Part shown: positions 14,245-24,350 of the stretch, piece by piece | Layout of the letters: every line of letters starts with the position of its first letter | Position numbering within the stretch: position 1 is the first letter of the stretch | Virus record (IMG/VR): IMGVR_UViG_3300032093_000035 | Span: 48,403 to 112,402 of that record | DNA length: 64,000 bases | Source: a virus | Direction: 5' to 3' (one strand) | Program-made: the position numbers and the translations under genes | Notes under the pieces: generated by a model | The model's database searches: none | The model's input: only the letters and a program-made list of their open reading frames with translations | What the model was told of the DNA's origin: nothing

Positions 14245-14278
14245 TAAAGATAAGGTTTATTCTGATAGGATCCTAATC
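14245..14278 (-). promoter_or_regulatory. Early promoter, GGATCC class
   Basis: Minus-strand TTATCTTTA (-7) with GATTAGGATCC at -33, for the gene starting at 14223. Confidence 0.7.
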
Positions 14279-14305
14279 TTTTGTTACTTTTTTTACTGCA
14301 GAAAT

Positions 14306-14327
14306 CCGACGCCATTTCTGACGCCGG
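14306..14327 (-). ncRNA. GAAA-tetraloop hairpin in leader/intergenic RNA
   Basis: Read on the minus strand as RNA, nine base pairs including two G-U pairs close on a GAAA tetraloop. The same architecture with different bases occurs at 16528-16549. It follows the stop of the ATPase gene and an AUAUCUCUCAA string. Confidence 0.5.
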
Positions 14328-14352
14328 TTCCTTATTTGAGAGATATGTTTTC

Positions 14353-15300
14353 CTATTCTGCTGCGATGATTTGCTCTGCTACCATCATTGTGGGATCCTC
14401 AAAGCCCATTGCACATATGCGGGCTGCTTTAATAAAGCTTCTGAGGTTGATGTCAATACCCGCATATTTTTTATCCAGGTCCTTCATAATGCTGAGTGCC
14501 TGCTGCTTCGCTGCCAATGGGATGCTAGGCTCCATTGTCGACATCAATTGCTCCATGCGGGTAAACATCTGCGTGGTGTTCATTGAGATGTCTGACACAA
14601 AGCTGCGTGAGCGAATTGCTGCATCCAATTTTGATTGGTGGATGTTGCTGATGAAGATAACACGGCCGGTGAACTCAAAGTGTGCCGGGATAGGCTCGCC
14701 AAACTCATCCTTAAGCGGCTTGCTTGAGATATAAGAGATCTTGCGTGTGTCATAGCTATCCAACGCCGCCTTCAAAAGGTTCACTGCATCCTCGTCTTTG
14801 AATACCGAGTCACAGTCATCAAAGATAACAATCTTGTCGGAGTTCTGGTAAAGGGTAATAAACAACCCGGCTGCTGTGGTGCGCCCTTTAAAGTGAACAA
14901 ACTCATATGACTCTCGCAAGCCCATTCCCTTAAGCGTCTCCTTAACCAGGTGCGTCTTACCAACACCCGCCATACCTGTGATTACCAATGACGGTTGGAT
15001 TCCGCGACCCACCATCTTTGTCAGACGAGTAAGGTTGTCAAACATTACCTCAGGATCTCTGCTCTCCACCACTGACAGGAAAGACATCTTAGCCGGTGCT
15101 GCCGGTGCTACCGATACTCCTGCCGTTGCTGCTGCTACTCTAACAACACGCCCATTTGCTCCAACCATCAACACTTCGCGGTTGGCTTCTGCACTGCGCA
15201 ATTGCACGTCGCGGATTAAACCCTTTGGCGCGAACTCACCTGTGTTAACATTCTTCGCCATTAACTTCCCTTTTACTCTTACTGCTTCAAATACGTTCAT
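14353..15300 (-). CDS. AAA-family ATPase
   Basis: The 315-aa protein has Walker A GMAGVGKTH at about residue 110, Walker B KIVIFDDCDSVF at about 155, and a sensor-like VIFISNIHQSKLDAAIRSR with arginines near residue 225-235. The first 100 residues are a separate beta-rich and Ala-rich region. This fits a single-domain AAA+ protein of the sort phages use in replication or helicase loading, but there is no helicase-specific motif. It has its own early promoter of the GGATCC class and an unusually long leader of about 50 nt. Confidence 0.8.
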   Translation of the reverse strand: MNVFEAVRVKGKLMAKNVNTGEFAPKGLIRDVQLRSAEANREVLMVGANGRVVRVAAATAGVSVAPAAPAKMSFLSVVESRDPEVMFDNLTRLTKMVGRGIQPSLVITGMAGVGKTHLVKETLKGMGLRESYEFVHFKGRTTAAGLFITLYQNSDKIVIFDDCDSVFKDEDAVNLLKAALDSYDTRKISYISSKPLKDEFGEPIPAHFEFTGRVIFISNIHQSKLDAAIRSRSFVSDISMNTTQMFTRMEQLMSTMEPSIPLAAKQQALSIMKDLDKKYAGIDINLRSFIKAARICAMGFEDPTMMVAEQIIAAE

Positions 15301-15356
15301 CTCTCTTATATGGTATTTAATTAAATGCTCTTAAGGCCTTTCCCTAATTGCTTACA

Positions 15357-15391
15357 TAAAAATAAGGCAAATTCTGATAGGATCCTAATCT
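15357..15391 (-). promoter_or_regulatory. Early promoter, GGATCC class
   Basis: Minus-strand TTATTTTTA (-7) and AGGATCC (-33), upstream of the ATPase gene. The -7 box is a near match to the 9-bp repeat array at 23.4-24.3 kb. Confidence 0.55.
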
Positions 15392-15434
15392 TTTGCAAAC
15401 TTTTTTTAACTTTTTTTCCTGGTAGGATCCAGGC

Positions 15435-15977
15435 CTATTCGACCCGGAAGATTGCTAAGGCTTTGCGCTGATCTCTACCCTTTGTCAGGAACAATGCATC
15501 CAATTGGTCAGCGTTGTCATATATCTTTCCGTCTCGGATTGCTAGGGCATGCTTTGCCACTATCACAATAAAGGATCCTTTCGGATGCTGAGCTAAGAAC
15601 TTGCCTACGGTGAATCCTGAGAAGGTGCCTCCTCCCTTCGGGTACTTCAGGTTAAGCAACACTCCACGCTCCTTTGCCTTAGCCGGTGTGATTGGAGTGC
15701 GGCTAAAGGTTCCTAATGGACGGATCTCTTTGCCGGCCAACTTCTCTCCAGCGGTTGCCATTGTCTTAAGCTTCATCGGTGCACCCAATGTGCCTTTACC
15801 TCTTTGGCGGCCGAATCGGCTAGCAACCAACTCGTGTGCTTCGTCATAGCTAACCTGGCATGCATTCATCACTGCTCGAACGAAGCAGTCATTGTTCTCG
15901 CCTTTAGCCTTCTTGTCTGTGTCCTGGATAGCTGCGCTTCCTACTACGAACTTCATTTTGAAATCAACCTTTTTCAT
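15435..15977 (-). CDS. Papain-like cysteine hydrolase-like early protein
   Basis: A 180-aa protein. ENNDCFVRAVMNA places a Cys at the N-terminus of a helix near residue 31, and FIVIVAKHALAIRDGKIYDNAD near residue 140 supplies His in a strand followed by an Asp/Asn turn. Cys-His-Asp/Asn in this order and spacing is the papain/C39-like layout. Peptidase or amidase activity on a host protein would fit an early gene but is inference. The leader is AAAAGAGAGATATATG. Confidence 0.6.
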   Translation of the reverse strand: MKKVDFKMKFVVGSAAIQDTDKKAKGENNDCFVRAVMNACQVSYDEAHELVASRFGRQRGKGTLGAPMKLKTMATAGEKLAGKEIRPLGTFSRTPITPAKAKERGVLLNLKYPKGGGTFSGFTVGKFLAQHPKGSFIVIVAKHALAIRDGKIYDNADQLDALFLTKGRDQRKALAIFRVE

Positions 15978-16024
15978 ATATCTCTCTTTTATTTGATTAC
16001 GTGGGTTACTCAGTTAGTGGATTC

Positions 16025-16213
16025 TTATGCCATATCATCCGACACATCCAACACTGTCCATTTTACATTCTGCTGGATGTATTCCGTTACATCTTCCGGA
16101 TCGAATCCATCTGCTACCAATGCACGTGTAATGCTAGCCGTTGCCATTTGCAATTGCGTCATTGCCTCTGTGCTAACCAATCCATCCATTCTGTCAAACA
16201 TTTCTTTTGTCAT
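16025..16213 (-). CDS. Small early hypothetical protein
   Basis: A 62-aa protein (MTKEMFDRMDGLVSTEAMTQ), helical then beta (VKWTVLDVSDD). The start at 16213 was preferred over an upstream ATG because the early AGAGAGATATG leader and promoter lie directly in front of it. Confidence 0.65.
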   Translation of the reverse strand: MTKEMFDRMDGLVSTEAMTQLQMATASITRALVADGFDPEDVTEYIQQNVKWTVLDVSDDMA

Positions 16214-16234
16214 ATCTCTCTCTTTTAATTTTAA

Positions 16235-16268
16235 TAAAGATAAGAAAAAAAAGAACACGTGTCAAGCA
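16235..16268 (-). promoter_or_regulatory. Early promoter, TTGACA class
   Basis: Minus-strand TTATCTTTA (-7) and TTGACAC (-33) for the gene at 16213. Confidence 0.7.
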
Positions 16269-16293
16269 TTTCGGTAACTTTTTTTAAACTTTT

Positions 16294-16500
16294 TTATAGG
16301 CCGGAAAACTCCCCATCTACGAACAATAAGGCTTCTCCAGGCTCTAGTCCGGCAACTGTGATATTGAGGTAACCGTCATTGGGATCCGAGATGTTGTCCA
16401 TATCGAGGACCATATAGTCGACTCTTTGTTGATCCAATATTGTCAGGAACCCTTTTGCCTGGAAGGCTTCTGCTGTTGCGATGATGTCTTGTCTTGTCAT
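16294..16500 (-). CDS. Small early hypothetical protein
   Basis: A 68-aa protein (MTRQDIIATAEAFQAKGFLT), a helix followed by a beta-rich acidic part (GYLNITVAGLEPGEALLFVD). Its leader has the GAAA hairpin at 16528-16549 about 30 nt upstream and there is no promoter in the gap, so it is probably read through from the gene at 16574-17026. Confidence 0.6.
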   Translation of the reverse strand: MTRQDIIATAEAFQAKGFLTILDQQRVDYMVLDMDNISDPNDGYLNITVAGLEPGEALLFVDGEFSGL

Positions 16501-16527
16501 GTCTCTGTGTGTTTCTCACGTCCGCAA

Positions 16528-16549
16528 GGGCCGACATTTCTGCCGACCC
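16528..16549 (-). ncRNA. GAAA-tetraloop hairpin in intergenic RNA
   Basis: Minus-strand RNA GGGUCGGCA GAAA UGUCGGCCC: nine pairs with two G-U wobbles and a GAAA loop. Same length, loop and wobble positions as 14306-14327 but with compensating base changes in the outer stem. It may act in RNA stability or in translation of the next gene. Confidence 0.5.
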
Positions 16550-16573
16550 GGGACTCATATTGAGAGACATGAT

Positions 16574-17026
16574 TTACTCTTCTTCGTCGGTCGGTGTAAA
16601 CTCCGTAAACCCGATGGTTAATGTGTGGCCCATTGACCCGTCCCAACCCGGTGCTGGTTGATCGTCGTCAGCTTCCTCCTCGTCAGCTTCCTCGTCCTCC
16701 TCAAGCACAAACTCTGCTACTACTGCTTCCACGTGACTCATTATTTCATAGATGTCAATGTTAACCTCAGTGAGCTCGATGCGGTTGTCATAGTTAATCT
16801 CAAAGCACGCGCTGTCTTTGTCGATGATCGAGTCGCTATTGTAATCCAACGCTCTTTGGATCTTGTCGCCGATGGTTGCTGCGAGGTCCTCAGTGATCCC
16901 AAACACTTTGACTGTCTTTTGCTCCGCCTCCAACTGCTGGATAAGCTCGATCACTTTGTCAATGTCAACTTGTGAAGACAACGCCTTTGCTCCTTCTAAC
17001 TGTGCAATTAAATTTTCTTTTTTCAT
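16574..17026 (-). CDS. Early acidic protein
   Basis: A 150-aa protein: N-terminal helix (MKKENLIAQLEGAKAL), central mixed region (VKVFGITEDLAATIGDKIQR), and a long acidic stretch (LEEDEEADEEEADDDQPAP) near residue 115, ending DEEE. Such acidic tails occur in DNA-mimic or protein-binding early phage proteins, but no family is recognised. Confidence 0.65.
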   Translation of the reverse strand: MKKENLIAQLEGAKALSSQVDIDKVIELIQQLEAEQKTVKVFGITEDLAATIGDKIQRALDYNSDSIIDKDSACFEINYDNRIELTEVNIDIYEIMSHVEAVVAEFVLEEDEEADEEEADDDQPAPGWDGSMGHTLTIGFTEFTPTDEEE

Positions 17027-17048
17027 ATCTCTTATTTTTTAATTTATA

Positions 17049-17083
17049 TAAATTTAAGGTTAATTTTGATAGGATCCTAATCT
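17049..17083 (-). promoter_or_regulatory. Early promoter, GGATCC class
   Basis: Minus-strand TTAAATTTA (-7) with AGGATCC (-33) for the gene at 17026. Confidence 0.65.
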
Positions 17084-17107
17084 TTTAGAAACTTTTTTGA
17101 AACTTTT

Positions 17108-17359
17108 TTAATTGAGGTTTATGCCGCGCTTAAGGTCCTCAGTTGCATTGTTTCGGTCAATCTTAGCGCTTAGCACTAGTGCTATTGCGTCTCCTAAATC
17201 ATCCAAGTCACCGTCCTTTGTCTTTGCCACCAACAAGGTGATCATCAACAGACCCAACTTTTTGAACCCTTCGTCACCTGTGGTGATTGCTAGGGTGTTA
17301 CACAATTCAACTGCGCTTTCGATGTTGTCTACTAACTGCTTTGCCATTTTTTCATTCAT
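17108..17359 (-). CDS. Small early helical protein
   Basis: An 83-aa helical protein, MNEKMAKQLVDNIESAVELC, with a hydrophobic central helix (LGLLMITLLVA). The start at 17359 was preferred to an ATG three codons upstream because GAGAGAGATGA then lies in the leader position as in neighbours. Function unknown. Confidence 0.65.
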   Translation of the reverse strand: MNEKMAKQLVDNIESAVELCNTLAITTGDEGFKKLGLLMITLLVAKTKDGDLDDLGDAIALVLSAKIDRNNATEDLKRGINLN

Positions 17360-17390
17360 CTCTCTCATTTGTCTTATTTTTTAATTTATA

Positions 17391-17424
17391 TAAAGATAAG
17401 CATTTTTTTGTTCGGTGTCAACCT
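17391..17424 (-). promoter_or_regulatory. Early promoter, TTGACA class
   Basis: Minus-strand TTATCTTTA and TTGACAC for the gene at 17359. Confidence 0.7.
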
Positions 17425-17441
17425 TTTTGTTAACTTTTTTT

Positions 17442-17672
17442 TTACTTGCTTTTGCACGGGCAAGACTCCGAGTGCACTACTCCACTGTCATGATTGACGC
17501 CATCAAATGCTAGGTACTCATGCCCGTCGAATTTAATTACTCGGATATCAATTCCTTGTATCTTGATAGGTTGTGATGGCGCTTCACAGCTTGTCAATAA
17601 TGCTACTACGCTGCCAAACAATACTAATCCCGTTCCGGCTACTACTAAGAATGTTTTCAATCGGTTTTTCAT
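17442..17672 (-). CDS. Small early lipoprotein
   Basis: A 76-aa protein with a basic N-terminus, a hydrophobic segment (FLVVAGTGLVLFGSVVALL) and a lipobox LLTSC at about residue 29, so it should be exported and lipid-anchored. The mature part is about 48 residues and ends in Cys-rich HSESCPCKSK. Possible superinfection-exclusion or envelope role is inference. Confidence 0.65.
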   Translation of the reverse strand: MKNRLKTFLVVAGTGLVLFGSVVALLTSCEAPSQPIKIQGIDIRVIKFDGHEYLAFDGVNHDSGVVHSESCPCKSK

Positions 17673-17694
17673 ATATCTCTCTTTTTAATTTTAA

Positions 17695-17728
17695 TAAAGA
17701 TAAGCAAAATAATGCTCGGATCCTAATC
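17695..17728 (-). promoter_or_regulatory. Early promoter, GGATCC class
   Basis: Minus-strand TTATCTTTA and TTAGGATCC for the lipoprotein gene. Confidence 0.7.
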
Positions 17729-17743
17729 TTTTTGAAACTTTTT

Positions 17744-17908
17744 TTATCCGAAGAATCCTCCGCTTATAAGGATCCATATAAGGATCCCGGCGTTTATCAA
17801 TGCTCCGAATATATTGAATTTGCCGGTTCTGGGCTTGCCATGCAAGTAAGCGGATGCTAATAGATTAAGTCCCATTATTACTAATAAAATGATTTGTGGT
17901 GCTCCCAT
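17744..17908 (-). CDS. Small membrane protein (54 aa)
   Basis: A 54-aa frame, MGAPQIILLVIMGLNLLASA then YLHGKPRTGKFNIFGALINA, with two membrane segments joined by a basic HGKPRTGK loop. This style is common in unnamed small membrane proteins. Start preceded by AAAAGAGAGAAAC. Function unknown. Confidence 0.6.
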   Translation of the reverse strand: MGAPQIILLVIMGLNLLASAYLHGKPRTGKFNIFGALINAGILIWILISGGFFG

Positions 17909-17933
17909 GTTTCTCTCTTTTTTTTAAGGTTTA

Positions 17934-18074
17934 TTATTTTCTGCTATCAACTAAAAACATCCAAAATTTCGTGTCAGGATACTTTGCTTTGTATATCATG
18001 TAATCCACTCGGATCGCCACTGCCGCAATTGCTACTACGGCTCCGATCAATAATGCTAACTTCAACTTTCTCAT
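17934..18074 (-). CDS. Small single-pass membrane protein
   Basis: A 46-aa protein, MRKLKLALLIGAVVAIAAVA then basic/aromatic tail (MIYKAKYPDTKFWMF). The start at 18074 fits the early leader; an upstream in-frame ATG lies inside the promoter and was rejected. Confidence 0.55.
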   Translation of the reverse strand: MRKLKLALLIGAVVAIAAVAIRVDYMIYKAKYPDTKFWMFLVDSRK

Positions 18075-18094
18075 ATCTCTCTTTTTATAATACT

Positions 18095-18128
18095 TAAAGA
18101 TAAGAATAATATCAATGCGAGTCAACCT
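18095..18128 (-). promoter_or_regulatory. Early promoter, TTGACT class
   Basis: Minus-strand TTATCTTTA and TTGACTC for the gene at 18074. Confidence 0.7.
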
Positions 18129-18153
18129 TTTTCCAAGAAAAGTTTCAACAAAG

Positions 18154-18894
18154 TTACAGGTACTGTTCTAGCAGTTGGATCCCCGGTAGCTTGGCCATTT
18201 CGGTCTCTGCCTGGCGAACCAGCTGTCGTGCTCGTTCTCCTGTCACTCCCATTTCCTCAGCAATCTGATCCATACACTGTGCATACTCACGCCCAATGCC
18301 ATAGAAGCGAGTCAATGCCTCTCGTTGCTTGGGTTTAAGCTGTGTCATCGCTCTTTGTAGGTCGTATTGGAGATCTGCTGTCTCACGTGCGGATTTCACA
18401 GCATCTGCAGCCAAGTATCGATCCGCATAGGTTTCTTTGTTCTCATCATCGCCTACCGGAGTGCTGATGCTTTTGATATGTTGCTCCTCAGTTGCTGTCT
18501 TGTGGCTAGGGATCCTTACTACTCTGGATAAGTCATTCAGAGCCTTTTGGATCTCTGCTCTGACATACCATACCGCAAAGGTAATGAACTTCACACCCTT
18601 ATCCGGATTGAATCGTTCTGCGGCTTCGAAGAGTCCAATGTTACCAAACGCAATGATGTCTTCCAACAAGAGTCCCATTCCTTGATACTGCCGGGCTACC
18701 TGCATCACAAACCGAAGGTTGCTTTCAACCAGGATGTTAATGGCTTTGCGGTTACCTGCCTGAGCGGCTCTGCCTAACTCTTTCTCTTGTTCGCGGTCCA
18801 GGTATCCAAACTTCTTAATCTCCTGCATATATTTCTGCGTGCTAGCAACATCCGTTACTATTGCTCCATTACTTACGTGAATCTTTTTTCCCAT
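18154..18894 (-). CDS. RNA polymerase sigma-70 family factor
   Basis: A 246-aa sigma factor. Region 2 runs from ILVESNLRFVMQVARQYQGM (about residue 54) through LLEDIIAFGNIGLFEAAERF to FITFAVWYVRAEIQKAL (about 115); region 4 lies at about residues 178-235 (QLKPKQREALTRFYGI, then IAEEMGVTGERARQLVRQAE with its helix-turn-helix). It resembles RpoD-type more than ECF factors, with a short N-terminus. It presumably redirects host RNA polymerase to a later phage promoter class such as the ATATTTATA motif; that link is inferred. No clean early promoter was found directly upstream. Confidence 0.9.
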   Translation of the reverse strand: MGKKIHVSNGAIVTDVASTQKYMQEIKKFGYLDREQEKELGRAAQAGNRKAINILVESNLRFVMQVARQYQGMGLLLEDIIAFGNIGLFEAAERFNPDKGVKFITFAVWYVRAEIQKALNDLSRVVRIPSHKTATEEQHIKSISTPVGDDENKETYADRYLAADAVKSARETADLQYDLQRAMTQLKPKQREALTRFYGIGREYAQCMDQIAEEMGVTGERARQLVRQAETEMAKLPGIQLLEQYL

Positions 18895-19003
18895 AACCTC
18901 TTTGTCTATCTCTTGTTAATTCGTTTGCTTCTTGCCACATTATCTTGATACAAGCGACGCACACTAACCCGAATGTCGTCGCCACTAAAACACCGGATAT
19001 CAT
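18869..19003 (-). CDS. Small single-pass membrane protein (44 aa)
   Basis: A 44-aa frame, MISGVLVATTFGLVCVACIK with a basic tail. Its start overlaps the stop of the gene upstream (ATGA at 19000-19003) and its end overlaps the sigma-factor start by 26 bases, suggesting coupling. Function unknown. Confidence 0.5.
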   Translation of the reverse strand: MISGVLVATTFGLVCVACIKIMWQEANELTRDRQRGYGKKDSRK

Positions 19004-19197
19004 TTCCCGGTGCTTAAGAATTTGAAACTTACTCGGATCGGCTTCTCAACCTTTGCGCGGTACTCTGCGTTGCGCTCTCCTTGCTTCTTTGCTTGTGCTA
19101 CAGTGGTAGTGTTACCTCCTGCCTTTGCATCTCTCTGGAACTGACCCATTACCGCTCCTTGTCTTTCGAATCCTGAATTTCTGTCTTTCTTTGCCAT
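19000..19197 (-). CDS. Small basic early protein
   Basis: A 65-aa basic protein (MAKKDRNSGFERQGAVMGQF) with Gln/Lys-rich AQAKKQGERNAEYRAK. It heads the group with the 44-aa protein and the sigma factor, so it is likely co-transcribed with sigma from the promoter at 19224-19257. Confidence 0.6.
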   Translation of the reverse strand: MAKKDRNSGFERQGAVMGQFQRDAKAGGNTTTVAQAKKQGERNAEYRAKVEKPIRVSFKFLSTGK

Positions 19198-19223
19198 CTC
19201 TCTTATTATTTAATTTCTATACT

Positions 19224-19257
19224 TAAAGATAATGAATTAAACCATGCGTGTCAACCT
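19224..19257 (-). promoter_or_regulatory. Early promoter, TTGACA class
   Basis: Minus-strand TTATCTTTA and TTGACACGC; probably drives 19000-19197, the 44-aa gene and the sigma factor. Confidence 0.7.
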
Positions 19258-19262
19258 TTTTG

Positions 19263-19502
19263 TTAACTTTTTTTAAACTTTTCTAAAACTTTTTTTGCAG
19301 TGGGAGGCGCTATGCTGTTAGTGAGTGCTTTGTATTGCACTATATCTAATCTAGCTTCCACATTTGCTAATGCAACTCCCACTTCGTCATCCTGCTGAAA
19401 TAAATCAAATGATTCCATAGCCTTCCTCAATTCCGTAACGGTTGTTCTTAAGCTTCTAATTTCATTTCGCAAATCGTTGATTTCTTTAACTTCTTTTTTC
19501 AT
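19263..19502 (-). CDS. Small coiled-coil early protein
   Basis: A 79-aa protein with a leading coiled coil (EINDLRNEIRSLRTTVTELR) and a Lys-rich end (VLEKFKKS). The A-tract codons at its end directly precede the next -33 element. No family recognised. Confidence 0.6.
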   Translation of the reverse strand: MKKEVKEINDLRNEIRSLRTTVTELRKAMESFDLFQQDDEVGVALANVEARLDIVQYKALTNSIAPPTAKKVLEKFKKS

Positions 19503-19524
19503 ATCTCTCTTTTAAATTAATACT

Positions 19525-19558
19525 TAAATATAAGGAATAAATCAATGCGTGTCAACCT
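19525..19558 (-). promoter_or_regulatory. Early promoter, TTGACA class
   Basis: Minus-strand TTATATTTA and TTGACACGC for the gene at 19502. Confidence 0.7.
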
Positions 19559-19584
19559 TTTTCCAAGAAAAGTTTAAACTTTTT

Positions 19585-19959
19585 TTACTCGAATACTCGC
19601 ACTCGGCCGGATTGGAATCCATTACCAGCCTTTGTTGTTTTAAACTGACACCATATTGAAAACTCATTTCCGTCTTCCACCCACTCCACGATAGCATCCA
19701 ATCTGTCAATGATGCGCTGCAGCTTAGCTTCGGTTAGCAATCCACTTTCCAATAAAGGTCGGCAACCAAACGATGCACAACCTCTAGCTTCATTCGCCGC
19801 AATCCGGATCTTTTGTGGGACTAGCTCTTCAATCGCAGCATCTAGTGCCTCATCATCAACCTGGAATGTATCATATCCGGTTAATAGTTTCGTGTACTGT
19901 GCTACTGCATACTCTGCCATTGCTTCAACGGCTCCTGGAATAAATTGTGTCTTTTTCAT
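19585..19959 (-). CDS. Early hypothetical protein
   Basis: A 124-aa protein: helical N-terminus (AMAEYAVAQYTKLLTGYD), a central RGCASFGCRPLLESGLLTEA segment with two Cys, and a beta-rich end (FSIWCQFKTTKAG). No known domain recognised. Confidence 0.65.
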   Translation of the reverse strand: MKKTQFIPGAVEAMAEYAVAQYTKLLTGYDTFQVDDEALDAAIEELVPQKIRIAANEARGCASFGCRPLLESGLLTEAKLQRIIDRLDAIVEWVEDGNEFSIWCQFKTTKAGNGFQSGRVRVFE

Positions 19960-19977
19960 ATCTCTTATTTTAATACT

Positions 19978-20011
19978 TAAAGATAAGCAAAATAATGTTC
20001 GGTGTCAACCT
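19978..20011 (-). promoter_or_regulatory. Early promoter, TTGACA class
   Basis: Minus-strand TTATCTTTA and TTGACACCG for the gene at 19959. Confidence 0.7.
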
Positions 20012-20020
20012 TTTTGCAAA

Positions 20021-20209
20021 CTATTTTTCAGGAATCTCATCTGAGTCATACATCTCGAATTCTCCCGGACCACCTTCTTCGACAAATGATTCCTGGAACC
20101 CGTGCCCGTTTTGCACCAATGCCAATGCTTCCTCTTCGGTCTCAGCAAAGATCTCATAATACTGGATTACCGTTGTTTTGATGCGCTCTTCGAATCTAAA
20201 TACTTTCAT
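20021..20209 (-). CDS. Small early hypothetical protein
   Basis: A 62-aa acidic protein (MKVFRFEERIKTTVIQYYEI) with a strand-helix layout containing AETEEEALALVQNG, a common small-domain pattern in phages. The start at 20209 was chosen over an upstream ATG inside the preceding small frame. No promoter of its own is obvious. Confidence 0.6.
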   Translation of the reverse strand: MKVFRFEERIKTTVIQYYEIFAETEEEALALVQNGHGFQESFVEEGGPGEFEMYDSDEIPEK

Positions 20210-20213
20210 TGGT

Positions 20214-20294
20214 TTATTTTTTAAAGTCCTGATTATAAATGTTGCTGATGCTAACAATCAGCGCTAAAACTAAAACTATTCCTACTACCTCCAT
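20214..20294 (-). CDS. Possible 26-aa membrane peptide
   Basis: A very short frame, MEVVGIVLVLALIVSISNIY, forming one membrane segment. Its ATG lies within the final codons of the gene upstream (overlap of 10 bases) and it stops 4 bases before the next start. Coupling makes it plausible; its size makes it uncertain. Confidence 0.4.
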   Translation of the reverse strand: MEVVGIVLVLALIVSISNIYNQDFKK

Positions 20295-20449
20295 GACTCG
20301 TCGTTTGGTGGCCAAAATGATATTTGCCACCACCCACCTGCGATTCGAGTAAGCGGTCCTGCTGTGTACCCACCCGATGGGTATTTGTTCATTTCGCGGG
20401 TAAGATCCCGGAACAACTCGGCTCTGTCATTTGATTGTAATACTATCAT
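20285..20449 (-). CDS. Small early hypothetical protein (54 aa)
   Basis: A 54-aa frame, MIVLQSNDRAELFRDLTREM, then GGYTAGPLTRIAGGWWQISF, ending PPNDESWR. A helix followed by a Trp/Gly-rich strand. Preceded by AATAAGAGACAATG. No match known. Confidence 0.55.
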   Translation of the reverse strand: MIVLQSNDRAELFRDLTREMNKYPSGGYTAGPLTRIAGGWWQISFWPPNDESWR

Positions 20450-20461
20450 TGTCTCTTATTT

Positions 20462-20710
20462 TTAGTTTATTACCTCAGCCCAACTGCGTGTGAATCCACC
20501 CTCAATCTCATTGTATGACTTGTTTAAAGCCGTTACCAATGCTGTGATGCTTTTCGGCTTCCGATTGATTTTATGATTCCAACTGTTGCCACATTCCAGG
20601 GTGTATCCAAACACATTGCCTACTAGGTACTCAACAGTACCCTCATAAATCGTTTCCCGGGATCCTGACATCCCTGACTTCGTAATCTTAACTTTAAATG
20701 ATTTTGCCAT
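20462..20710 (-). CDS. Small early hypothetical protein
   Basis: An 82-aa protein beginning MAKSFKVKITKSGMSGSRET, beta-rich, then basic NHKINRKPKSITALVTALNK. Its own promoter lies at 20733-20767. Function unknown. Confidence 0.65.
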   Translation of the reverse strand: MAKSFKVKITKSGMSGSRETIYEGTVEYLVGNVFGYTLECGNSWNHKINRKPKSITALVTALNKSYNEIEGGFTRSWAEVIN

Positions 20711-20732
20711 ATTTCTCTCTTTTTAATTTTAT

Positions 20733-20767
20733 TAAAGATAAGCATTTTTAGATTAGGATCCTAATCT
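20733..20767 (-). promoter_or_regulatory. Early promoter, GGATCC class with perfect palindrome
   Basis: Minus-strand TTATCTTTA with GATTAGGATCCTAATC at -33, a perfect 16-bp palindrome and therefore a possible dimer operator. Confidence 0.7.
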
Positions 20768-20770
20768 TTT

Positions 20771-20980
20771 TTAAACTTTTTTTACAATTCCTGCTGCTAA
20801 AAGTGCCTGGATAAGCTCCTCATTCGGCACAAAGCCATTCGGCATAAATTGATCCAGGTAAGTGTCGGTTACTGGTGCCTCCGCATCCAATTCCTCATTA
20901 AACTCGGCTTCCAGGATCCCTTCCAGGAACTGCGCTAGCTCTGCGGCTAGGGTAATGTCAATCTTAAATTCTCTTTCCAT
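20771..20980 (-). CDS. Small acidic early protein
   Basis: A 69-aa acidic helical protein (MEREFKIDITLAAELAQFLE) ending in a short basic KKV. No family recognised. Confidence 0.65.
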   Translation of the reverse strand: MEREFKIDITLAAELAQFLEGILEAEFNEELDAEAPVTDTYLDQFMPNGFVPNEELIQALLAAGIVKKV

Positions 20981-21000
20981 TTCTCTCTTTTAATTTATAT

Positions 21001-21034
21001 AAAGATAAGCAAAATAACCATGCGTGTCAACCGT
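21001..21034 (-). promoter_or_regulatory. Early promoter, TTGACA class
   Basis: Minus-strand TTATCTTTA and TTGACACGC for the gene at 20980. Confidence 0.7.
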
Positions 21035-21244
21035 TTAGGCAACTTTTTTCAAAAAATATTTCAACTCATATTGAGCTGAGATCGGATCCTCATCATATGC
21101 TCCTCCGGCCCACTCGGCTACAAATGCACGAAACCCATTGGAATTCTTTGTGTTGATGTCAGATGCTTTAGCTGCTGCTAATTCTTCCGCGGAAAAAGTA
21201 ACCCATGTACTCAATTCCAAAAACATGTCATTCAATGTTGTCAT
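21035..21244 (-). CDS. Small early hypothetical protein
   Basis: A 69-aa protein (MTTLNDMFLELSTWVTFSAE) with a Trp-containing helix FRAFVAEWAGGAYDED and a basic end. Its stop lies 1 bp from the adjacent -33 element. Function unknown. Confidence 0.65.
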   Translation of the reverse strand: MTTLNDMFLELSTWVTFSAEELAAAKASDINTKNSNGFRAFVAEWAGGAYDEDPISAQYELKYFLKKVA

Positions 21245-21267
21245 ATATCTCTCTTTTTAATGATACT

Positions 21268-21302
21268 TAAATATAAGAATAATTCTGATAGGATCCTAAT
21301 TT
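21268..21302 (-). promoter_or_regulatory. Early promoter, GGATCC class
   Basis: Minus-strand TTATATTTA and TTAGGATCC for the gene at 21244; it overlaps the last codons of the gene at 21296. Confidence 0.7.
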
Positions 21303-21490
21303 TTAGGCAACTTTTTTAATAAAGTTCTTCGCTTTGCTTTTAGCTTGCGGATCTCTAAACGGCGCAGGTATGGTCCGTGGTTATAGGTGCTTCCTGCCCA
21401 AGCCATCGTCCAAACCGTGTTGTCGCGCTGAAGGCATTCAATGTGATGATCGATGCGGTCTATTGCATCCTGGATCTCTTTTGGTGTCAT
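21296..21490 (-). CDS. Small basic early protein
   Basis: A 64-aa protein: acidic helix (IQDAIDRIDHHIECLQRDN), a central WAGSTYNHGPYLRR, then a very basic helix (KLKAKRRTLLKKL). Probably nucleic-acid or protein binding; unproven. Confidence 0.65.
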   Translation of the reverse strand: MTPKEIQDAIDRIDHHIECLQRDNTVWTMAWAGSTYNHGPYLRRLEIRKLKAKRRTLLKKLPKN

Positions 21491-21512
21491 ATCTCTTATT
21501 TTTTATAATACT

Positions 21513-21546
21513 TAAAGATAAGCAAAATAACCATGCGAGTCAAGCA
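21513..21546 (-). promoter_or_regulatory. Early promoter, TTGACT class
   Basis: Minus-strand TTATCTTTA and TTGACTCGC for the gene at 21490. Confidence 0.7.
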
Positions 21547-21571
21547 TTTTGCAAGAAAAGTTTAAACTTTT

Positions 21572-21877
21572 TTAATAATCATTTTCCAACAAAAATGCCT
21601 TGACGGATCCGGATTTATTTGCAATTAAATTTTCCATTTCTGCAACACTGCCGCGGAAATAAAATATTCTCGACTTCAAGCCCGGCACTCGGATTTCAAT
21701 GCGCTGATATAATTTCTTCCACCACCCGCGTCTCAGCATATCCGCATATTTTTTATTTGGATCCTTTGATGTGTTTCGGTCATACCCAAAAACTTCGCGC
21801 TGGATCCTGGTCTCGGATGCTAACACGGTTAGGTCCAAAAAATCAACAATCTGGTTCACTGAATTTCTTTTTGTCAT
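21572..21877 (-). CDS. Early hypothetical protein, basic centre
   Basis: A 101-aa protein (MTKRNSVNQIVDFLDLTVLA) with a basic middle (YADMLRRGWWKKLYQRIEIR) and a beta-hairpin (RIFYFRGS). It could be a small DNA-binding protein of winged-helix type, since a helix pair precedes the basic strand pair, but no clear helix-turn-helix motif is visible. Confidence 0.6.
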   Translation of the reverse strand: MTKRNSVNQIVDFLDLTVLASETRIQREVFGYDRNTSKDPNKKYADMLRRGWWKKLYQRIEIRVPGLKSRIFYFRGSVAEMENLIANKSGSVKAFLLENDY

Positions 21878-21899
21878 ATATCTCTCTTTTTAATTTTAT

Positions 21900-21934
21900 T
21901 AAAGATAAGCAAAATAATATTAGGATCCTAATCT
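21900..21934 (-). promoter_or_regulatory. Early promoter, GGATCC class
   Basis: Minus-strand TTATCTTTA and TTAGGATCCTAAT for the gene at 21877. Confidence 0.7.
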
Positions 21935-21955
21935 TTTAGCAAAAAAGTTTGCTGG

Positions 21956-22354
21956 CTAATTAAAGCCAACAAACCCTTTCTCTAACACAATATCTAATTC
22001 CTCTGCAATCTCTTTGAGGCGGTAATAAGCAGCCTCCTCAATCTCATCCTCAACCGTTTCTGCCACTTGGCCAATTGAATAGCCAAATCCAAATCCATAA
22101 CAGGTAACAGCTTTCTGGATGCGGATCATTTCCTCAGATGCAGCGTTCTCCCAATCCATTACTAAAAAGTCTGCTTCATAAAAGTCATCCTCATCCGTTT
22201 CTTGTGAGCGCTCACATTCATCAAATGCTGTGGCCCACAATGTGTGCACTTTAGCCTTTACTACCTCAGCCACCTCATCATTGTGGTCATACATTTCGCG
22301 GCTCCATGGTTTTGTGATTTGGATCCCGTACTCTACTTTTGCTGCTTTTTTCAT
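21956..22354 (-). CDS. Early acidic hypothetical protein
   Basis: A 132-aa acidic protein (MKKAAKVEYGIQITKPWSRE) with aromatic centre YEADFLVMDWENAASEEM and a C-terminal acidic helix. No motif recognised; charge suggests possible DNA mimicry or protein binding. Confidence 0.65.
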   Translation of the reverse strand: MKKAAKVEYGIQITKPWSREMYDHNDEVAEVVKAKVHTLWATAFDECERSQETDEDDFYEADFLVMDWENAASEEMIRIQKAVTCYGFGFGYSIGQVAETVEDEIEEAAYYRLKEIAEELDIVLEKGFVGFN

Positions 22355-22375
22355 ATTCTCCCTTTTTAATTTATA

Positions 22376-22409
22376 TAAAGATAAGGTTTATTTCCGTGCG
22401 TGTCAACCT
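22376..22409 (-). promoter_or_regulatory. Early promoter, TTGACA class
   Basis: Minus-strand TTATCTTTA and TTGACACGC for the gene at 22354. Confidence 0.7.
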
Positions 22410-22434
22410 TTTTGGTAACTTTGTTTGAACTTTT

Positions 22435-22677
22435 TTAATCCTCATCCTCATATTCGCCAAACTCAAATTCACATTCATCAATTACTTCTTCGAAGCACTG
22501 TGCTAGCCGATCGGCTTCAGCATCACTTAATTCTGCCTCATCCAAAAAACGATCAAACACTCCTATTAATCCTTCGCTTTCAATAAAGGAATCCATTAAT
22601 TCTAATGCCGAGTCTCCAGCTACATCTGTAAAGTTGTAAATTCTCCCGTACAAGTCTTGCAATTCTTCTCTTTTCAT
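22435..22677 (-). CDS. Small acidic early protein
   Basis: An 80-aa acidic helical protein (MKREELQDLYGRIYNFTDVA) ending EYEDED. No family recognised. Confidence 0.65.
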   Translation of the reverse strand: MKREELQDLYGRIYNFTDVAGDSALELMDSFIESEGLIGVFDRFLDEAELSDAEADRLAQCFEEVIDECEFEFGEYEDED

Positions 22678-22702
22678 ATTTCTCTCTTTTTTTTAATTTT
22701 AA

Positions 22703-22736
22703 TAAAGATAAGGAAAAGATCAACGCGAGTCAACCT
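22703..22736 (-). promoter_or_regulatory. Early promoter, TTGACT class
   Basis: Minus-strand TTATCTTTA and TTGACTCGC for the gene at 22677. Confidence 0.7.
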
Positions 22737-22751
22737 TTTCCCAAAGTTTTT

Positions 22752-22880
22752 TTACATATTTTTTAAATGCTTCAAAAACAATTTTTTAACTTCGGCGTCT
22801 GACATTGCGCTAAGCGTGTCAAAACTAATTCCGCATACATAGTGCAACATGTGCTCGTGCTTTTCTCTTGGTGTTTGCAT
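22752..22880 (-). CDS. Small early protein (42 aa)
   Basis: A 42-aa frame, MQTPREKHEHMLHYVCGISF with a Lys-rich end (AEVKKLFLKHLKNM). It has a complete early promoter and AAGAGATATG leader, so it is very probably expressed despite its size. Confidence 0.65.
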   Translation of the reverse strand: MQTPREKHEHMLHYVCGISFDTLSAMSDAEVKKLFLKHLKNM

Positions 22881-22902
22881 ATCTCTTATTTTTTAATTTA
22901 TA

Positions 22903-22936
22903 TAAAGATAAGAATAAAAACCATGCGTGTCAACCT
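22903..22936 (-). promoter_or_regulatory. Early promoter, TTGACA class
   Basis: Minus-strand TTATCTTTA and TTGACACGC for the gene at 22880; rightmost of the uniform early promoters. Confidence 0.7.
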
Positions 22937-22982: not shown

Positions 22983-23022
22983 AAAAAGGATCCCAGGAAT
23001 AAGAGAGAGAAACCCGGGATCC
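22983..23022 (-). terminator. Terminator of the 23-kb non-coding RNA
   Basis: Minus-strand stem GGATCCC / GGGATCC (7 bp, perfect) followed by TTTTTCTTT. It lies upstream of the last early gene, so it ends a transcript coming from the right that contains no gene. Confidence 0.75.
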
Positions 23023-23348
23023 ATTCTAACACAGAGACTAGCTCTGCCTTACCTAATGCGGCCGATCCGCCGGGAGTGTCTTTCGAGCACTAGGATCCCG
23101 GACCCTGTCAGCCTTTGAGAGATATGTTGTTGGCACGTCTGATTTGTATTGCTACATCACAACCAGATTAAGATGCTACTTGATCACGTGCCTAAGTTGA
23201 TTCTAAATAAAGAGCCGGAGGTGTTAGCTTAGTGCTGTCCCTGAGGAGTGCGAAGCTTGTGGTTACCGGCTCTTAATATTATGTCGTGATCCTTGCGGTC
23301 GCCTCTCTTACGGCATTTGGTTGGATCAACCTTCCTTCTTATTTACTT
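22983..23348 (-). ncRNA. Candidate non-coding RNA of about 360 nt
   Basis: No reading frame of useful length covers this span on either strand. The minus strand has a promoter-like pair upstream (GGTTGG and TTCATATAATATA, 23350-23384) and a strong terminator at the end. In between are GGTTG ATC CAACC near the 5' end, a long-range stem GAGCCGG / CCGGCTC enclosing about 50 nt (23212-23275), and an AGTG..CACT hairpin near 23085. It does not resemble tmRNA, RNase P RNA or 6S RNA that I can identify. Its place between the early block and the repeat array suggests a regulatory or replication role, by inference. Confidence 0.5.
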
Positions 23349-23349
23349 T

Positions 23350-23384
23350 TATATTATATGAAATCTAAATCTAGATTCCAACCT
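23350..23384 (-). promoter_or_regulatory. Promoter of the candidate RNA
   Basis: Minus-strand TTCATATAATATA preceded by GGTTGGAATC. The same -7 variant occurs before the genes at 27601 and 50202. Confidence 0.5.
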
Positions 23385-23789
23385 CGATCTAAATATTATT
23401 CTAAAAATCAATCTAAATATACATGTATATCGGTCTAAAAATAGACTAGGTGGTTACTCTGTATAAGTACAGAACCGAACTAAAACCCGTCTAAAAGCAC
23501 TTTTCTTCTAAAAATAGGACTAAAAATAGAACCGGATTCGATCTAAAAATAACCTAGAATTGGACTAAAAATAGCGGGGAGGAGCTGGATCCTTCTAAAA
23601 ATAAGAGGTATTGGTCTAAAAATAGAACCGGTTCCTTCTAAAAATAAACGCCCCTAATACGCGTGATCGAACATATACACACTATATGCACGGATCCTTC
23701 TAAAAATAAGGTACTCCGTATAGCTAGTGATCTGAACGATCGATCTAAAAATAGCGGGGAGGAGAAGCGGATATCGATCTAAAAATAGC

Positions 23790-23972
23790 CTATTCGTCCT
23801 CAGTCTCTTGCACATCAACTTCCATGTCCCCATGGGACTGTTCTAATTCCAATTCGCCCGAGCTAAGCTGTTCCCAGGCTATATCCTCAGCCGCTTCTTC
23901 CGACTCTGCCTCAATCTCAGTCTCTGCATACGCATATGAAACGCTCGACACTCTAATTATATACTTTGCCAT
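23790..23972 (-). CDS. Small acidic protein inside the repeat array
   Basis: A 60-aa acidic protein (MAKYIIRVSSVSYAYAETEI) with a strand followed by an acidic helix (EAESEEAAEDIAWEQL) and an acidic tail. It has a TTATATTTA box upstream. Its position between repeat copies 13 and 14 makes it a candidate partner of the array, but no DNA-binding motif is visible and the charge is wrong for direct DNA contact. Confidence 0.65.
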   Translation of the reverse strand: MAKYIIRVSSVSYAYAETEIEAESEEAAEDIAWEQLSSGELELEQSHGDMEVDVQETEDE

Positions 23973-24067
23973 ATTCTAATTATATACTCTAAATATAAGA
24001 ATAATAATTCATATATCCTAGCATTTTGTTCTAAAAATAACACGATATTGGTCTAAAAATAAACCGG

Positions 24068-24096
24068 AAAAGGTTGGATATTCGAATAACCTTTTT
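24068..24096. terminator. Perfect hairpin flanked by A and T runs
   Basis: AAAAGGTT / AACCTTTT stem with GGATATTCGAAT between, T run on the plus strand. The rest of 24100-24350 holds repeat copies at 24242 and 24276 and no credible gene. Confidence 0.55.
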
Positions 24097-24350
24097 ACGC
24101 ACTTCTAACGAGGTCTGCGTCGTTACTGGTAACTGTATATGCCTGGTGCCGCGATATAGAGCCTATGCCCCCCGTACTTGTTGTATTGGGAGGGAGATAT
24201 ATATAACCATCTTCCTTTCTGGATACTAGACACCATTTCGTCTAAAAATAAACGGGTGCGTCTGCGTATTTTAATCTAAAAATAACAAGGGGATGCTGAG
24301 GAAGCTGTAGTGCTAGACACTGGGCTCACACTCTGACAGGCTACTACTAA

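Follow-up and report, generated by a model that had tools for sequence, protein, structure and literature searches.

What is a dense, one-directional cluster of a single short word, CTAAAAATA, doing in an almost entirely noncoding stretch of viral DNA? The original prediction offered replication-origin iterons, a partition or centromere site, and binding of RNA polymerase or sigma factor as candidates. We analyzed a 64-kb window (bases 48403 to 112402 of a 112,402-bp virus record, G000), and a recount confirmed 15 exact same-direction copies plus one degenerate copy, CTAAAAATC, in less than 900 bp. The exact copies start on the plus strand at 23435, 23508, 23520, 23543, 23565, 23595, 23616, 23638, 23700, 23745, 23779, 24031, 24053, 24242, and 24276, and the degenerate copy lies to their left, at 23401 to 23409. 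In order, the spacings are 73, 12, 23, 22, 30, 21, 22, 62, 45, 34, 252, 22, 189, and 34; the spacings of 21, 22, 22, 22, and 23 bp that were said to dominate are all present, but at 5 out of 14 the verb is slightly strong. The claim of a density above chance held: with both strands summed, the window contains 19 copies, compared to a mean of 1.78 in dinucleotide shuffles (at least 19 in 0 of 100). The word is also infrequent elsewhere in the record: a genome-wide count gave 20 copies, and the array accounts for all but 5. When the record was scanned for any 6- to 9-mer clustered on a single strand within 700 bp, the array ranked first (log10 p of −31.3), with the second-best region at −11.6 and Markov controls (n = 8) at −5.7 to −7.9. 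The array and the elements inside it are as follows.

23435 to 24284, plus strand: array of 15 exact CTAAAAATA copies in one orientation (word count of the window; top strand-specific k-mer cluster in the 112-kb record)
23454 to 23479, plus strand: second recurrent motif, TTACTCTGTATA..CAGAACCGAA, present in most array relatives (read from the sequence)
23712 to 23737, plus strand: second copy of the recurrent motif, TACTCCGTATAGCTAGTGATCTGAAC (read from the sequence)
23790 to 23972, minus strand: acidic 60-aa open reading frame (ORF) within the array, with a promoter of its own (ORF list and promoter match)
24163 to 24233, plus strand: box of the form CTATGCCCC...AACC...ACTAGACAC, exactly 71 bp in 16 of 16 pattern-scan matches

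The core logo, built from 163 distinct copies in 18 loci (with locus L033 left out), has weak flanks, roughly ATTCGT on the 5' side and GAAC on the 3' side. The two commonest one-mismatch variants of the core alter the last base and nothing else, and no reverse-strand copy with exactly one mismatch was present in 9,968 bp of arrays. Together with its usual following base, the core (CTAAAAATAG) forms a 3-bp inverted repeat flanking an A-tract. Spacings below 100 bp had a preferred period near 10.8 (98 spacings from 14 arrays, L033 included; jitter null, 0 of 20,000), which was weaker once the class of 18 to 26 was removed (55 spacings; jitter null, 235 of 20,000); the 14 arrays are mutually related, and these numbers are not independent. 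On the 210-bp scale, the maximum predicted curvature of the whole 112 kb falls in the array under two models. We rejected curvature as proof of phasing, as random-spacing controls did nearly as well, matching the array (105-bp value) in 153 of 2,000 trials, and the exact spacing contributes little.

Between the array copies, the second motif recurs as CTCTGTATAGCTAGTGA..GAAC and variants. The 71-bp box sits within or beside the array, and its length was constant in the 16 matches even though the search pattern permitted gaps of variable length. We discarded the box as a small protein gene: by eye, its minus-strand frame is open in several loci and broken by stops in others. The 60-aa acidic gene mentioned in the original prediction does exist as an ORF. 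Among the loci that we fetched, it is strongly matched only in a twin contig of the same virus, and it is probably a passenger private to this virus within that set.

The parent virus encodes a T4-like capsid, portal, and terminase, and matches to annotated phages agree; the matched PHROG families are presumably the T4 ones. Nearly all of its larger ORFs lie on the minus strand. By capsid protein, the nearest annotated phage is Flavobacterium phage vB_FspM_immuto (55% identical). A host in the Bacteroidota is indicated by a 660-aa phage protein (31344 to 33326) whose C-terminal CHU_C domain is a type IX secretion signal; this protein may be exported by the host. To our knowledge, the type IX secretion system is confined to Bacteroidota.

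A pattern of three spaced copies matched 17 stretches in viral contigs. One was the same virus (a 169-kb contig, IMGVR_UViG_3300031857_000018), one (L031) was a plain 21-bp tandem repeat that we dropped from the counts, and the rest were arrays with variable linkers. The conserved-box pattern matched 16 stretches, of which 7 were new; among these, L037, L039, and L041 have one array in common. Most related arrays contain 5 to 15 exact copies with varied linkers, and L038 contains just 3. Nonredundant counts exclude L010 and L018 (the same virus as the window), L026 (equal to L023), L032 (array equal to that of L028), and L039 and L041 (equal to L037). One main CTAAAAATA-type cluster per genome was found in 8 of 8 related records; in G008, the record of L033, the cluster is divided into two groups about 3 kb apart. 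The same pattern matched 12 stretches among bacteria and archaea (one genome per species), and all 12 were rejected as carriers: they were sequences of another kind, for the most part simple tandem repeats, and lacked both the box and the promoter. The array was absent from the partial fragments examined of G009 to G012, which are related by ligase only. Neither the array region of the window nor the arrays of two relatives had DNA similarity to annotated phages. Among the text-search matches listed for CTAAAAATA, there was no phage paper by title, and among those listed for iterons with Bacteroidetes or Flavobacterium phages, there was nothing on this element.

In the relatives, too, the array occupies this position and directly precedes a cluster of small early genes whose promoters are strong. 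The original prediction had looked to related phages for conservation, and the array is indeed kept in related viral contigs. We are nearly certain that it is a real conserved cis-element; it is an evolutionarily kept control site just before the early genes in a virus of Bacteroidota bacteria.

Immuto (MW353175; 160 kb) carries a counterpart with another motif. Across its genome, the k-mer that clusters most strongly on one strand is ACCCGT, at 66317 to 66889, with a score of −31.4 compared to −5.5 to −8.2 in Markov nulls. This cluster holds 13 of the 18 copies in the genome, on the plus strand only, in units of about 12 bp that form two blocks, and it occupies a noncoding stretch just upstream of the small-gene (early) cluster. 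The flanking gene order agrees with that of the window: ORFs of the window have homologues ahead of the array at 61.4 kb and, beyond it, at 73.0 kb (E = 3e-8; 30% identity), at 77.2 kb, and from there into the baseplate genes. Like the array in the window, that of immuto has one orientation, is noncoding, matches in gene-order position, and is the top k-mer cluster of its genome; unlike it, the immuto array is built on ACCCGT at a pitch of 12 bp, and the genome is without a CTAAAAATA array. From position and form, not from sequence, we infer that the two arrays are orthologous. Rhodothermus phage RM378 and Mel-JY01 were rejected as further carriers, as the former had no comparable array and the latter no clear one.

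We next describe the left flank of the array, where the early genes begin.

23353 to 23383, minus strand: promoter GGTTGG-N17-CATATAAT at the edge of the array, pointing left, away from the repeats (13 of 16 loci)
23340 to 23440, no strand: AT-rich segment (GC content of 0.21) at the junction of promoter and array, among the lowest 0.8% of the 100-bp windows of the record
23058 to 23327, minus strand: structured noncoding modules, three hairpins with conserved internal loops, between promoter and terminator
22988 to 23022, minus strand: hairpin with a GC-rich stem and a T run on the minus strand (fold and sequence; loop sequence recurs in relatives)
14253 to 22911, minus strand: early gene cluster, in which small genes have strong promoters and are read away from the array
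18154 to 18894, minus strand: sigma factor gene within the early gene cluster

The adjacent promoter and the position at the edge of the early cluster, like the 71-bp box, go beyond the original prediction. Promoters of the cluster consist of GGTTGACA or GATTAGGATCC, about 20 bp, and then TTATCTTTA; we call them early from their strength, the small genes, and their place. At the array edge, the promoter-like sequence GGTTGG-N17-CATATTAT has an identical 31-bp geometry in 13 of the 16 loci having a left flank and no match in L021, L033, and L038. It overlaps the AT-rich segment, itself a candidate unwinding element. Summed over 18 loci, matches to a promoter matrix trained on sites of the window numbered 173 to the left of the array (about 113 kb), 0 inside it, and 10 to its right (about 111 kb), with some overlap between loci (L039 was retained here despite its redundancy with L037). 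In 11 loci, a member of the sigma factor gene family lies to the left of the array, at a distance of 2.7 to 4.8 kb. Near the sigma gene, 9 loci keep a gene for an AAA+ ATPase of 315 aa (14353 to 15300; phrog_1250, unknown function). We tried this protein as a DnaA-like initiator and dropped it, as nothing convincing was found among solved structures.

The minus strand of each copy, TATTTTTAG, resembles the −7 element of the phage (TTATCTTTA or TTATATTTA), and the array might therefore be a decoy of tandem sites for sigma factor or RNA polymerase. The −7-like core is common to the copies. They have no −33 element, however, and a weight matrix from 17 early promoters of this phage gave them scores of −17.6 to −50.6, compared to a mean of 44.9 for its training sites; they are not promoters. 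ACCCGT in immuto likewise has no likeness to a −7 element, and we find the decoy explanation very improbable.

The main rival of a replication origin is an upstream activating array, in which a phage or host activator would bind the repeats and drive the adjacent leftward promoter or open the early region without taking part in replication. The copies share one orientation and near-helical spacings and lie directly upstream of the fixed 31-bp promoter in 13 of 16 loci, and in immuto the first early promoter-like −7 element follows the second block after about 80 bp. However, the early genes carry complete promoters of their own, and the adjacent promoter serves a small ORF in some loci and noncoding modules in others. 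As many as 15 sites in 850 bp is also far beyond what an activator usually needs. We consider this explanation unlikely.

Tentatively, and with somewhat less than even confidence, we read the array as a directional iteron-type site of protein assembly whose most probable role is that of a replication origin, the motif itself changing fast. Compared to the alternatives, an origin served by its own initiator would better account for where the array lies, for its single orientation and near-helical spacing, for there being one locus per genome, for the AT-rich junction, and for the change of motif from genus to genus. As in iteron origins, a short motif is repeated in tandem and always in the same direction, and a candidate AT-rich unwinding element (23340 to 23440) adjoins the repeats. 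Among the candidates of the original prediction, iterons are the best fit (direct repeats, near-helical spacing, one locus, conserved position, and a differing motif in a cultured relative). In the mechanism that we propose, directional A-tract-centered iterons (CTA-AAAA-TAG) would be a platform for sequence-specific protein assembly, and an initiator would load onto them in the T4-like Bacteroidota phage. The bent array and the AT-rich junction (23340 to 23440) would then open, and a transcript from the leftward promoter (23383 toward 23353) may give a primer or aid opening, as in T4 origins. Protein binding, a replication start at the array, and involvement of the transcript would all follow from this model.

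A wider form of the origin reading is possible but more doubtful. A clade of T4-like Bacteroidota phages may rely on a single dedicated iteron origin, placed at the border upstream of the early genes, with the motif, and with it an unknown initiator, exchanged between genera while the position stays fixed (CTAAAAATA in the group of the window, ACCCGT in immuto). If true, T4-like phages would have a noncoding, initiator-driven origin, unlike the R-loop origins studied in T4. One conserved array per genome and a counterpart in a cultured Flavobacterium phage make the idea directly testable by sequencing depth, and the array is a sequence handle for locating its putative binding protein.

Several observations speak against an origin. 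The pitch of 12 bp in immuto is not a multiple of 10.5, and T4-like phages can use several origins. Rep_3 was found in 0 of 7 related records, 3 of 16 loci are without a promoter match, and there is no comparable array in RM378, no clear one in Mel-JY01, and none in the partial fragments of G009 to G012. DnaA gave matches below the cutoff only, in 3 of 7 related records. The original prediction proposed GC skew as a check; there was no GC3-skew reversal at the array, and we discarded skew as origin evidence.

Known origins resemble the array in part. According to PMC3016281, T4 oriF and oriG each join an AT-rich unwinding element to a promoter; the overlap of promoter-like sequence and AT-rich segment at the array edge would be comparable to this R-loop type. 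The same paper describes oriE as having evenly spaced direct-repeat iterons of unproven role, said to persist in syntenic regions of close relatives; as described there, oriE is like the array in its evenly spaced direct repeats in a T4-like phage with a promoter nearby. In contrast, the T4 24-nucleotide repeats sit inside the gene 5 coding sequence, whereas the array, with its unrelated motif, is nearly all noncoding and borders the early genes. In the T4 record (NC_000866; locus L057, 3903 to 4070), the repeats beside oriE fall within gene 5. They may simply encode repeated protein segments of gene 5, which would weaken them as iterons.

According to PMC4980987, iteron binding in plasmid origins is cooperative and depends on helical phase, and the RK2, F, P1, and R6K origins share with the array direct repeats in one orientation and an AT-rich neighbor, the plasmid repeats being 17 to 22 bp. 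The array differs in that Rep_3 was found in 0 of 7 related records, in its greater number of copies and variable linkers, and in its second motif and 71-bp box. PMC7145576 describes RepA_N iterons that converge on a poly-A tract and, in the PLE satellite origin, semipalindromic direct repeats around such a tract in noncoding DNA of a phage-linked replicon, which are also like the array. Unlike PLE, the replicon here is a T4-like phage and not a satellite, and RepA_N was detected in 0 of 7 related records, with the positive control equally silent.

Rich in repeats, noncoding, and confined to one locus that borders the early region, the array could also be a site of genome handling, i.e., a packaging start, a DNA-entry pause as in T5, or a segregation site. 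The partition or centromere site of the original prediction found no visible partner: a parS- or tubC-type site goes with an NTPase (ParA or TubZ), and ParA-type (PF13614) and tubulin-type (PF00091) proteins were detected in 0 of 7 related records, and the positive controls gave signals in 14 of 14 and 13 of 14, respectively. The terminase lies more than 50 kb from the array. T4-like genomes are usually packaged by headful with permuted ends and so have no fixed entry border. A role in genome handling is improbable. Literature searches on T5-type injection stop repeats yielded nothing useful.

Slightly less probable still is a long noncoding RNA encoded by the array, whose repeats would bind an RNA-binding protein. 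Structured noncoding modules adjoin the array, and a period near 11 also fits A-form RNA. Shared linker modules had suggested a large structured RNA across the array, which we rejected: the consensus fold of eight array regions was weak (−11.9 and −16.5 kcal/mol on the two strands; 986 to 990 columns), with almost no covariation on either strand (−0.3 and −2.1). The fold z-scores were unremarkable, scattered around −1 with a lowest value of −3.5, and there was no Rfam match. The array thus has no conserved fold with covariation.

The interval between the array-edge promoter and the hairpin at 22988 to 23022 holds structured noncoding modules in some loci and a small ORF in others. This hairpin is likely a terminator that separates the array-edge transcript from the early genes, and similar hairpins are present in L020, L022, L023, L025, and L036 to L038. 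Its loop (GGTTTCTCTCTTATTCC on the minus strand) shows complementarity to AATAAGAGA, the leader found ahead of many early genes, which could be antisense-type translation control or a coincidence of A/G-rich leaders. The hairpin at 23211 to 23274 had no Rfam match in the loci searched. It shares a conserved internal loop (AACCACAAGC / GCTAACACC) with L019, L030, L037, and L038; its stem is kept in 5 of 5 aligned loci through compensating changes, and the outer stem varies on both sides. It is probably an undescribed small structured RNA. A second module, at 23058 to 23107, has a GNRA-like loop (GAAA or GCAA) on the minus strand and also occurs in L019, L023, L024, L028, L037, L038, and L040.
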